The position numbers were made by a program, and so were the translations under genes. The notes beneath the pieces are model-generated. The model did no database searches. It had not been told where the DNA came from and saw only the letters and a program-made list of their open reading frames with translations. Shown one piece after another: positions 17,855-21,117 of a DNA stretch of 64,000 nt. Numbering within the stretch: position 1 is the stretch's first letter; each line of letters starts with the position of its first letter. The stretch lies in the NCBI RefSeq assembly GCF_007993045.1, contig NZ_VOOR01000012.1, positions 62,001 to 126,000 on the forward strand, read 5' to 3'. The stretch is from Phaeodactylibacter luteus. Lineage in GTDB: Bacteria; Bacteroidota; Bacteroidia; Chitinophagales; Saprospiraceae.

Positions 17855-18640
17855 ATGGATGCATTAGTAAACAATTTTCAACCTTTGCTGCTTGCGCAGC
17901 TCAAGTCCGGTGACTACGTAGGGTTCACCTTCTTCATCGGCTCTATGGCTATGGCAGCTGCCACAGTCTTCTTTTTCTTCCAGTTCAGCCAAGTGAAGGG
18001 CAAATGGAAGGATTCTATGCTGGTCTCAGGGCTGATCACTTTCATCGCTGCGGTCCATTACTTCTACATGCGGGATTTCTGGGCAACCAACCAAGCTTCC
18101 CCTACGGAGTTCCGCTACATTGACTGGATCCTCACCGTGCCCCTGATGTGCGTTGAGTTTTACCTCATCCTGCGTGCGTTTGGCGCTAAGGTAGGCCTGC
18201 TGTGGAAAATGATCTTCTACTCTGTAGTGATGCTTGTAGCGGGCTACTTGGGCGAGACGGTCTTCCGCGATGCTTCTCCACTTTGGGGCTTTATTTCCAC
18301 CATTGGGTACGCTGGTATCCTGTATGAAGTATGGATGGGCTCGGCAAAGCGTTTGTCCAACAACTCAAACGATCCGATCCTGCAGAAAGGCTTCAATGCA
18401 CTGGCGTGGTTCGTATTTGCTGGCTGGGCGATTTACCCAATCGGCTACATGACCATCGAAACGGGCTGGCTCGCTGGATTGATCCCGGCAGAATCTATGG
18501 ATATCATCTACAACATTGGGGATGCTGTCAATAAGATTGGCTTTGGTCTGGTGATCTACTCGCTTGCAGTCTCCAAGTCTGCACAGGGAGCCGAGCAGCA
18601 CGTAGAAGCTGGCGCGGGCAAAGCGACAACCAACGCATAA
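17855..18640 (+). CDS. Proteorhodopsin, green-type DTE proton pump
   Basis: A 261-residue seven-helix retinal protein that should pump protons outward in light. By comparison with the well-studied proteorhodopsin, RYIDWILTVPLMCVE gives Asp90 (acceptor, D97), Thr94 (T101) and Glu101 (donor, E108), the DTE motif. The colour-tuning position (105) is Met98, which points to green absorption. His68 in AAVHYFYMR corresponds to H75. Lys227 in GDAVNKIGFG is the retinal Schiff-base lysine. A Gly in PLWGFISTIG of helix 5 could form the carotenoid-antenna opening described for related pumps, to be tested by alignment. It follows crtY-blh with a separate leader that carries inverted repeats. Confidence 0.95.
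   Translation: MDALVNNFQPLLLAQLKSGDYVGFTFFIGSMAMAAATVFFFFQFSQVKGKWKDSMLVSGLITFIAAVHYFYMRDFWATNQASPTEFRYIDWILTVPLMCVEFYLILRAFGAKVGLLWKMIFYSVVMLVAGYLGETVFRDASPLWGFISTIGYAGILYEVWMGSAKRLSNNSNDPILQKGFNALAWFVFAGWAIYPIGYMTIETGWLAGLIPAESMDIIYNIGDAVNKIGFGLVIYSLAVSKSAQGAEQHVEAGAGKATTNA
17859..17872 (+). promoter_or_regulatory. Shared 13-base word, copy B, inside the first rhodopsin codons
   Basis: ATGCATTAGTAAAC overlaps codons 2 to 6 of the rhodopsin gene (Asp-Ala-Leu-Val-Asn). It is identical over 14 bases to copy C, which lies after the gene, so the rhodopsin reading frame is flanked by direct repeats. Confidence 0.4.
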
Positions 18641-18732: not shown

Positions 18733-18946
18733 TATTCCTGCAAAGTTAAGGGATTTACTTGTTAATAGGGTGTTAAAGCCAAAAAACTACCGGCAGTACT
18801 GCACAATCGCGCAGTGCTGCCGGTTTCGTTTACTACCTGCTGTTGCCCCTCATCCGCTGAACTTTTTCTGCCTTCCTGCCTTTAAAAACCACCATCTGCC
18901 AAGGCCAACCCTGGCAGGTTCTCAGAAAAAAATCAAAGCAAACCCA

Positions 18947-19699
18947 ATGAAAAAAGCACTGAAAATCACGGGGCTCATAGTGGCTGCCCTCTTAGCTTTA
19001 TCCGTTTTGGGCATATGGCTGGCCCATACGCCCCGCCCGGAAGCCTCTCCTTCCCCGGAAGCCGATGCGCTGGCCCGCAAAATGATGGAGGCGGTAAATG
19101 CAGAGGCTTGGGAGGCGACCCGCTATGTAGCTTGGGCTTTTCCCGGAGGGCACGAGTACATCTGGGATAAGGCCAAGGAAGTGGTGCAGGTGAAATGGGG
19201 GGATACCGAGGTTTTGATGTCGGCGAATGGCCCTAATGGCAAGGCTTGGCGTTCAGAACAGCCGTTGGGCGGAGAAGCTGCGCAACAGGCTTTAGAACAG
19301 GCTTGGGGCTTTTTCTGCAATGATGCTTTCTGGCTTTGCGCCCCCACGAAGGTGTTCGACCCTGGAACTACGCGCAGCTTAGCCACACTCCAAGACGGTA
19401 GCCGAGGGCTCCTCGTGGCCTACAGCAGTGGAGGGGTGACCCCGGGAGATGCCTACTTATGGGAGCTGGGCGAAGACGGCCGGCCGCTTTCCTACCGGAT
19501 GTGGGTTTCGGTATTGCCTATCGGCGGGCTTAAGGCCTCTTGGGAAAAATGGGAACAACTGCCGACCGGCGCCCGCCTGGCGACTGCTCACGACTTCGGG
19601 CTGATCAGCATGGAACTGGAGGGGGTCCGGGGAGGGCAGTCCCTACAAGATGTCGGGCTGTCCTTTTACCCCTTCGAGGCCTTGGGCATAAGAGAGTGA
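18947..19699 (+). CDS. Membrane-anchored exported protein of unknown function
   Basis: A 250-residue protein from the ATG at 18947. It begins MKKALKITGLIVAALLALSV, an uncleaved anchor or signal segment, then a Pro-rich linker (HTPRPEASPSPEADALA). The soluble part holds WEATRYVAWAFPGGHEYIW, a Trp-rich core, and LPIGGLKASWEKWEQLPTGARL near the end. The body, with its repeated W/Y strands, looks like a lipid-binding or YceI-like beta fold, but no family is recognised. An in-frame extension back to 18770 lies in AT-rich, non-coding sequence and was not used. The gene shares direction with the rhodopsin and PAS-UbiA genes and lies between them. Confidence 0.75.
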   Translation: MKKALKITGLIVAALLALSVLGIWLAHTPRPEASPSPEADALARKMMEAVNAEAWEATRYVAWAFPGGHEYIWDKAKEVVQVKWGDTEVLMSANGPNGKAWRSEQPLGGEAAQQALEQAWGFFCNDAFWLCAPTKVFDPGTTRSLATLQDGSRGLLVAYSSGGVTPGDAYLWELGEDGRPLSYRMWVSVLPIGGLKASWEKWEQLPTGARLATAHDFGLISMELEGVRGGQSLQDVGLSFYPFEALGIRE

Positions 19700-19740: not shown

Positions 19741-19758
19741 TTTCAGAAATTACTGAAA
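19741..19758 (+). promoter_or_regulatory. Palindrome just upstream of the PAS-UbiA gene
   Basis: TTTCAG-AAATTA-CTGAAA is a perfect inverted repeat with 6-base arms and a 6-base centre, 9 bases before the ATG at 19768. It could be a repressor site or a small mRNA hairpin that covers the ribosome entry region. Confidence 0.4.
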
Positions 19759-19767
19759 GTAAAAAAT

Positions 19768-21036
19768 ATGAAAAGTGTCATCACCTGTGATATGGAAGGC
19801 CGGATCGAAACCTTCAGCAAAGGAGCAGAAGAACTGTTTGGGTACTCGGCCGAAGAAGTAGTAGGGAAAGAGCGGGTTTCTGTTTTTTCCCCTGGGGAGA
19901 TCGTACTGCAGAACGTGCCCGTCTGGCTGGATACGGCTAGCCGGGAAGGCAAGTACGAAGGCGAGACCCGGTTTTTACGGAAAGACGGCTCCCCATTCAG
20001 CGCCCGCATACGGATTACGCCGACTTTTGCCAATGGCAAGGCGAATGGGCAGACCGGCTATTGCGGTGTGACAGAAGCTGTAGCCGAAGAAGTCGACCCG
20101 CCCATACGTTGGACAACCAAGCTGGTCAAAGCCTTGGCCATTACCCGGATGCCATTCCTTTCGGCTGTACTGATGCCCGCCTTCATCGGAGGGGCGTTTG
20201 CTTATCATTATGTTCTGGACAACCCTGGCACGGCTTTCAGCTGGGGGCTGTTTTTGTGGGCCGTGCTCGGCGTAGCGCTGCTGCACTTGGGCAGCAACGT
20301 CATGAATGATTATTTCGATGTAAAAGACGGGACAGACGGCGCCAACAACAATTACTTCCTACAATTTTCAGGCGGCAGCCGTGCCATTGAATTGGGGCTC
20401 ATTACCTTAGGGCAGACTAAAAAGCTTGGGCTGCTCCTCCTTGCTGCTTCGGGCCTCATCGGCGCCTATCTGGCATGGGCAACGGGCTGGCCTGCATTGA
20501 TGATAGGATTGGCAGGCTTAGCTATAGGGTATCTGTACACCGCTCCGCCTGTAAGGCTGGTTGCGCGCCGCGGGCTTGGCGAGCTGGGCATTGCGCTTGC
20601 GTTCGGGCCATTGGTCACGTTAGGCATTGTATATGTGGCCACCCTACAGTTGGTGCCAATGGCTTTTTGGATAGGCTTGCCAGCTGGGCTGCTGACTGCC
20701 AATATTTTGCTGATCAATGAATTCCCGGATGCAGAGTCTGATGCCCTTACGGGGAAAAACCACTTGGTCGTTACTTTTGGCAAGGAAAAAAGCACCTACA
20801 TCTATTTGGGCATACTTTTAGCGGCAGCTGGGCTCACGCTGGGTTTGTCCTTCGCCCTGCCTGGGGGCAACCTATGGCTTGCACTGGTAGCTGTCCTGAT
20901 ACTGGCATCGGGCTTGGCTATTTTCCGGCATATCCGCATGCATTATGAGGACCGTTCTCTGGTCTTATCCAATAAAAGGACAATAGCGCTGAGCGCATTG
21001 GGCGGGCTGTTTACAGCCATAGCGCTTATACTCTGA
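19768..21036 (+). CDS. PAS domain fused to UbiA-family prenyltransferase (MenA-like)
   Basis: A 422-residue fusion. Residues about 1-108 are a PAS sensor domain: ITCDMEGRIETFSKGAEELF, GYSAEEVVGK, RFLRKDGSPF and a final YCGVTE. No LOV cysteine motif is present. Residues about 120-422 are a UbiA-type integral-membrane prenyltransferase with both Asp-rich sites: NDYFDVKDGTD (180-190) and NEFPDAESD (317-325). The block FSGGSRAIELGLIT is that of the 1,4-dihydroxy-2-naphthoate prenyltransferase (MenA, COG1575) group. MenA proteins normally lack PAS. A lycopene-elongase-like or other role is possible. The ATG at 19768 was chosen because a longer frame overlaps the previous gene. A terminator follows. 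Confidence 0.85.
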   Translation: MKSVITCDMEGRIETFSKGAEELFGYSAEEVVGKERVSVFSPGEIVLQNVPVWLDTASREGKYEGETRFLRKDGSPFSARIRITPTFANGKANGQTGYCGVTEAVAEEVDPPIRWTTKLVKALAITRMPFLSAVLMPAFIGGAFAYHYVLDNPGTAFSWGLFLWAVLGVALLHLGSNVMNDYFDVKDGTDGANNNYFLQFSGGSRAIELGLITLGQTKKLGLLLLAASGLIGAYLAWATGWPALMIGLAGLAIGYLYTAPPVRLVARRGLGELGIALAFGPLVTLGIVYVATLQLVPMAFWIGLPAGLLTANILLINEFPDAESDALTGKNHLVVTFGKEKSTYIYLGILLAAAGLTLGLSFALPGGNLWLALVAVLILASGLAIFRHIRMHYEDRSLVLSNKRTIALSALGGLFTAIALIL

Positions 21037-21086: not shown

Positions 21087-21117
21087 GGTGGGCAAGCGCC
21101 AGCTTGCCCACCTTTTT
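21087..21117 (+). terminator. Rho-independent terminator after the PAS-UbiA gene
   Basis: GGTGGGCAAGC and GCTTGCCCACC form a perfect 11-base stem with a GCCA loop, followed by five T. It closes the rightward phototrophy segment. Its end touches the last codon of the convergent DUF6702 gene. Confidence 0.9.

Follow-up and report, generated by a model that had tools for sequence, protein, structure and literature searches.

The analysed stretch of Phaeodactylibacter luteus DNA (64 kb, referred to as the window) carries on its plus strand an open reading frame of 422 residues with an ATG start (19768–21036), in which an N-terminal PAS domain was found by profile searching to be joined to a UbiA prenyltransferase; the gene is called PAS-UbiA here. 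It is adjoined by crtY, blh and a proteorhodopsin gene (17855–18640, plus strand; PF01036, 1.2e-41; best PDB match proteorhodopsin). A terminator-like hairpin of 14 pairs (18789–18824, plus strand) lies behind the rhodopsin gene and parts it from PAS-UbiA, and a protein of 250 residues, hydrophobic at its N terminus and without Pfam match, is encoded between the two genes (18947–19696). An 18-bp palindrome, TTTCAGAAATTACTGAAA (19741–19758, plus strand), stops 9 bp short of the PAS-UbiA start codon and is a candidate operator. On the 3′ side the gene is followed by a hairpin resembling an intrinsic terminator (11 pairs, then TTTTT; 21087–21112, plus strand). An Rfam search of the 64-kb window gave no match.

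The PAS domain (residues 1–104; 19768–20079) was delimited by Pfam and NCBIfam profiles, a predicted structure and Foldseek, and has the complete Aβ to Iβ topology. A linker (residues 105–114; 20080–20109), placed by the secondary structure of the model, enters the first membrane helix of the UbiA domain (residues 115–422; 20110–21033; PF01040 and Foldseek); these and all following features of the window are on the plus strand. When residues 1–115 were scanned alone, PAS_9 (4.1e-12; 46.7 bits, cut-off 27), PAS_3 and PAS were matched above the Pfam cut-offs, as was the NCBIfam family sensory_box TIGR00229 (1.2e-12). Residues 116–422, scanned alone, matched UbiA PF01040 (3.3e-31; 107.5–108.9 bits, cut-off 34.2). 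Both Asp-rich motifs (Mg2+-diphosphate) are present, namely NDYFDVKDGTD (residues 180–190; 20305–20337; D181, D184 and D190 invariant) and NEFPDAESD (residues 317–325; 20716–20742; N317, P320, D321 and D325 invariant), and their Asp residues are invariant or nearly so among 42 homologues. The start codon is backed by the N-terminal sequence MKS[VT]ITCD, which is shared by the homologues; the 76 further open codons upstream of it are unconserved. The original prediction, made from the sequence alone, had given the same reading frame, a PAS domain in the N-terminal part with a UbiA enzyme in the rest, both Asp-rich sites and a strong terminator at the end of the gene; the searches agree with it on each of these points.

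Predicted structure and conservation of the two halves

An AlphaFold2 model (mean pLDDT 87.9, pTM 0.82), for which 42 sequences were aligned, comprises a complete PAS fold, its strands and helices following the order usual for PAS domains, together with the helical fold of UbiA. By using Foldseek on the model, the PAS part was matched to 3lyx (TMt 0.83, rmsd 1.5) and the UbiA part to AfUbiA (4tq3; TMt 0.71) and UBIAD1 (8djk; TMt 0.75). The solved proteins share the fold of the membrane domain at about 20% identity, but consist of the UbiA domain only, without PAS. The PAS fold is likewise common to the sensory-box domains of 3lyx, NifL (2gj3), Aer (8dik) and EcDOS (1vb6), with TMt values of 0.69–0.83; unlike these, the PAS domain of PAS-UbiA is joined to a membrane biosynthetic enzyme, has a conserved C7/C99 pair and lacks a conserved histidine.

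Among the 42 aligned proteins, mean pairwise identity was 66% in the PAS part and 53% in the UbiA part. The PAS part was the more conserved in 97.6% of all pairs, and among the 557 divergent pairs without exception; since it outdoes the enzyme part in this way, it is under strong selection. Cys7 in strand Aβ (19786–19788) and Cys99 in strand Iβ (20062–20064) are invariant (42/42 each) and are the only invariant cysteines. From the order of strands in PAS domains the two would be expected to lie near each other on the adjacent Aβ and Iβ strands, where they might form a thiol switch.

Known classes of PAS cofactor were compared with these features. The photoactive cysteine of LOV domains (helix motif NCRFLQ) is absent, residues 33–45 reading GKERVSVFSPGEI, and C7 and C99 are the only conserved cysteines, so that a LOV photoreceptor was rejected. 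A heme PAS of the FixL or DosP kind was rejected because there is no conserved axial histidine: none is conserved in the PAS part among the aligned homologues, and the conserved histidines H173 and H332 are both in the UbiA part. The resemblance to flavin-binding PAS domains (NifL, Aer) is structural only (Foldseek); W53 is invariant.

Distribution of the fusion, its neighbours and the upstream palindrome

Among 149 genomes surveyed in the bacterial family to which P. luteus belongs, four close homologues were found (73–75% identity in the UbiA part), all of them with the PAS domain. A wide scan of 84,980 species genomes was carried out with two patterns, one of them being MKS[VT]ITCD, and yielded 57 loci; the fusion is present in about 45 of them, nearly all at full length, a proportion that is biased towards PAS carriers by the choice of patterns. 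The carriers span Bacteroidota, Marinimicrobia and, with a single locus, Myxococcota; those in Bacteroidota belong to Phaeodactylibacter (including Phaeodactylibacter xiamenensis strain KD52, L092), other Saprospirales, marine Flavobacteriales, and Marinoscillum-like and other single-cell genomes. One contig (L110), filed under a Candidatus Methanomethylicia MAG, has a PAS-UbiA gene closely resembling that of Flammeovirgaceae contigs and is probably misbinned. That the fusion arose by chance or in assembly has a negligible probability and was ruled out, the identical junction being shared by about 45 separate assemblies from three phyla. A plasmid search gave no match that spanned 80% of the query. 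No PAS–UbiA fusion is described in the papers searched, which returned one irrelevant fungal paper; as far as these papers show, the fusion is previously undescribed.

The gene had been placed in a phototrophy island. By position this holds in P. luteus, but the 14-pair terminator-like stem stands between the rhodopsin gene and PAS-UbiA. No rhodopsin, blh or crtY gene was found near any of the roughly 45 related loci, within up to 10 kb of flank, so that the survey of other genomes did not sustain the proposed link to rhodopsin; the two genes form no conserved unit, and membership of a conserved rhodopsin cassette was rejected on the same ground. In the nearest relatives with enough flank, the downstream neighbour is fadE.

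The strict pattern of the palindrome, TTTCARNNATNNYTGAAA, occurs at a single site in the P. luteus genome, which is the one before PAS-UbiA; with one mismatch allowed, 0.16 occurrences are expected in the window. Exact TTTCA/TGAAA arms lie 12–32 bp before the start codon in eight Phaeodactylibacter-type homologues (L090–L095, L097 and L100; shuffle p about 0.002 or less), and the palindrome was not found before PAS-UbiA in other lineages. Since it is confined to the Phaeodactylibacter-type lineage, this co-regulation is not general to PAS-UbiA.

The relaxed pattern TTTCA-N8-TGAAA gave 8–21 hits per genome, as compared with 2–11 for a reversed control pattern; isolated relaxed sites were distrusted, and a site was considered only if it recurred ahead of one and the same gene in several genera. 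Such sites precede ECF sigma genes in five genomes and mqnE in four (both including P. luteus), cryptochrome-DASH/photolyase genes in four related genomes other than P. luteus, and the gene of a small membrane protein in three genomes including P. luteus, with a divergent nitroreductase gene in two. In one genome the relaxed palindrome precedes a rhodopsin gene. The sequences suggest that these sites belong to one regulon with a light, oxidative/stress or redox signal, light or redox being proposed because cryptochrome and rhodopsin genes are among the targets. The palindrome shared with cryptochrome/photolyase genes and one rhodopsin gene would give PAS-UbiA an indirect and weaker link to light. 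Beside the site in the window, the palindrome loci are L055, L060, L077, L068, L061, L085, L039, L058 and L076; further ones are L072, L078, L065, L057, L054, L066, L083 and L064.

Place among UbiA enzymes and the quinone genes of the carriers

The curated NCBIfam match that scored best was of MenA type. PAS-UbiA shares with MenA (NF004751, TIGR00751) two Asp motifs of the same kind, but its best MenA equivalog score was 114 bits against a cut-off of 264, and TIGR00751 gave 70.6 bits (cut-off 102); genuine MenA proteins from the bacterial family of P. luteus reached 367–371 bits with NF004750 (cut-off 346). It further differs from MenA by its N-terminal PAS domain, a separate clade and a host without MenD. 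In a tree of 34 UbiA domains, none of them from an elongase, PAS-UbiA was placed inside a MenA-like superclade (support 98/98) and apart from canonical MenA (100/100); the MenA proteins L029, L030 and L204 form a clade of their own. Support for the PAS-UbiA clade was modest (84/92), and its lone Myxococcota member is a long branch. The comparison with the lycopene elongases of haloarchaea, which had been drawn at the outset, is not supported by the profile scores, the best hits being of MenA type.

PAS-UbiA was grouped (92/94) with UbiA proteins that bear an N-terminal PNPOx domain or a third kind of domain. The former were found in Saprospirales, Dehalococcoidia and Marinimicrobia (L025:398-1921, L139:6442-7983 and L143:8965-10392), and PNPOx and UbiA occur in split form at L137:3989-5518. 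The latter are Chloroflexi proteins with an N-terminal domain of 190 residues without Pfam match (L136:9491-10969, L138:1-1452 and L140:9527-10681), the weak model of which (pLDDT 64) had H-NOX as its best, tentative match (E 0.0098, TM 0.37). Both kinds, the H-NOX-like one tentatively, resemble PAS-UbiA in belonging to the same UbiA clade and in having an N-terminal fold of cofactor-binding type, and differ from it in the kind of that domain. Within this clade, ligand-binding folds thus seem to be a recurrent feature of the N terminus, and the sister proteins suggest that fusion to a sensor-type domain arose repeatedly.

Six UbiA-family genes were found in the P. luteus genome: CyoE, an MqnP-like gene, one of homogentisate-phytyltransferase type beside a methyltransferase gene, one of GGGP-synthase type, a weak sixth and PAS-UbiA. 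Genome profile searches identified the futalosine route by MqnA/MqnD, MqnE above its equivalog cut-off and the MqnP-like UbiA (L002); no MenD above cut-off was found in this genome. The MqnP or futalosine-pathway enzyme is, like PAS-UbiA, a UbiA protein of quinone type, but it is far from PAS-UbiA in the tree, and the genome has both. For Haliscomenobacteraceae, including Phaeodactylibacter, MK-7 is described as the respiratory quinone (PMC5167729). Since futalosine genes are present, MenD is absent and the family contains MK-7, PAS-UbiA is an extra beside the main route by which P. luteus makes menaquinone.

The cut-offs, the tree, the futalosine genes and the absence of MenD led to the rejection of PAS-UbiA as the menaquinone MenA of this genome. 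It had been proposed to be either the only MenA or a second copy with a new role. The former fails, menaquinone being made by the futalosine route in a genome without MenD and the score being 114 bits where 264 are needed; the latter fits the genome better. The homogentisate phytyltransferase gene (341 bits, cut-off 226) lies beside its methyltransferase gene at L003:1456-3191 on contig C247; P. luteus also has HPPD, and the two would be compatible with a tocopherol- or plastoquinone-like route.

Among 34 carrier genomes, PF02621 (MqnA/D) was matched in six and MenD above cut-off in one. Two weak MenD hits were checked in context and are ilvB within ilvD-ilvB-ilvN-ilvC clusters; the remaining weak hits are probably acetolactate synthases too. 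One carrier (G152) has a full Men operon including MenA. In 18 genomes (G157–161, 163, 164, 167–174, 176, 180 and 182), which are small and mostly marine, PAS-UbiA is the only UbiA-family protein above cut-off besides CyoE (heme-O synthase), and neither MqnA/D nor MenD was found above cut-off in any of them; these are MAGs or single-cell genomes for which no completeness was reported, and the absence rests on its repetition across genomes. A chimera query, the UbiE part of which was taken from G182, was run in 22 genomes and gave true MenB only in the Men control, and MqnE with MqnP only in P. luteus; neither MenB nor MqnP was found in the further-searched subset of the 18 small genomes. UbiE was found in G157, G163, G169–173, G175, G176 and G182 (45–96% identity to the G182 query); of the 18 small genomes about half retain it, and five gave no match (G160, G161, G164, G168 and G174). 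HPPD was not found in many of the streamlined carriers, and homogentisate was rejected as a universal precursor on this account. Respiratory complexes of the NQR or NDH kind, for which a quinone is required, have been reported in Marinimicrobia (PMC6143742). The most economical reading is that PAS-UbiA acts in the streamlined carriers as a quinone prenyltransferase, with its substrate obtained by salvage or through an unknown pathway, because it is their sole UbiA protein other than CyoE, Men and futalosine markers are missing, UbiE is retained in about half and Marinimicrobia are reported with NQR or NDH.

Proposed role and competing explanations

We give an even chance to the reading that PAS-UbiA is a MenA-like prenyltransferase of quinone type gated by its PAS domain, and that it forms a second, conditional branch in P. 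luteus and the sole branch in streamlined carriers. By analogy with related enzymes, the UbiA part would prenylate an aromatic quinone head group from a polyprenyl diphosphate, relying on Mg2+ and both Asp motifs, and a UbiE-type methyltransferase, for which a gene directly precedes PAS-UbiA in four carriers, could then complete the quinone. The PAS domain may bind a small ligand or sense redox, possibly through Cys7 and Cys99, and so set the activity of the enzyme. In the Saprospirales genome of P. luteus the branch would be used conditionally beside the futalosine/MqnP route, under its own operator and within the light, stress or redox regulon. The protein would be the only quinone prenyltransferase of the streamlined marine Bacteroidota and Marinimicrobia, acting on a scavenged precursor (DHNA, for example) or within an undescribed head-group pathway. 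Against a second quinone stands the description of MK-7 as the respiratory quinone of Haliscomenobacteraceae, for which no second quinone is reported.

Several features of the carriers would also suit a salvage-type MenA that prenylates scavenged DHNA or a related naphthoate, UbiE then giving ordinary menaquinone and the PAS domain sensing the head group. About half of the 18 small genomes have no recognisable quinone genes other than those of PAS-UbiA and UbiE, ubiE lies directly upstream of PAS-UbiA in four carrier loci, and the closest curated families are those of MenA. Its carriers could be likened to the quinone-precursor auxotrophs among host-associated bacteria, and DHNA is documented as a growth factor for other bacteria. 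We nevertheless regard this explanation as rather unlikely: the protein lies outside the clade of canonical MenA and scores below the MenA cut-offs, and it is kept where MqnP, or in G152 a full Men operon with MenA, makes salvage needless. Similar doubt attaches to the proposal that the PAS domain is structural, serving in dimerisation or in the recruitment of a partner, for example, and does not gate catalysis. Many PAS domains merely dimerise, and neither a conserved histidine nor a LOV cysteine is present here to hold a known PAS cofactor; a purely structural part is at odds with a PAS domain conserved more strongly than the catalytic half, with its two invariant cysteines and with sister proteins that bear other ligand-binding folds at the same position. 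It is very unlikely that the enzyme makes a prenylated carotenoid or another light-related lipid tied to rhodopsin phototrophy. The adjacency of crtY, blh and the proteorhodopsin gene in P. luteus and the candidate operator common to cryptochrome-DASH genes and one rhodopsin gene are in its favour, but the related loci lack all three neighbours within up to 10 kb of flank, a terminator-like stem separates the rhodopsin gene, and the best profile matches are of MenA type.

If the gated quinone prenyltransferase that we prefer is real, it would be, to judge from the papers searched, the first prenyltransferase of quinone type to contain its own sensor, and a sensor-fused family of this kind is of more interest than an accessory of phototrophy. 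A bolder and rather unlikely reading is that PAS-UbiA marks an undescribed quinone route with post-translational sensor control in those streamlined marine Bacteroidota and Marinimicrobia from which the Men and futalosine routes are missing; what is undescribed may be a new head group or a new way of obtaining one. In 2026 a survey covering 26,264 bacterial genomes reported many lineages apparently without quinone pathways and suggested undiscovered quinones (PMC13386864). The PAS-UbiA family may explain part of these lineages and offers a concrete candidate gene.

At two further loci (L027:2236-4081 and L028:4136-5970), a protein of 302–307 residues without Pfam match is encoded directly before a MenA-like UbiA gene. 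The protein of L027 is 26% identical to PAS-UbiA across the UbiA part, and the arrangement is possibly a tandem UbiA pair.
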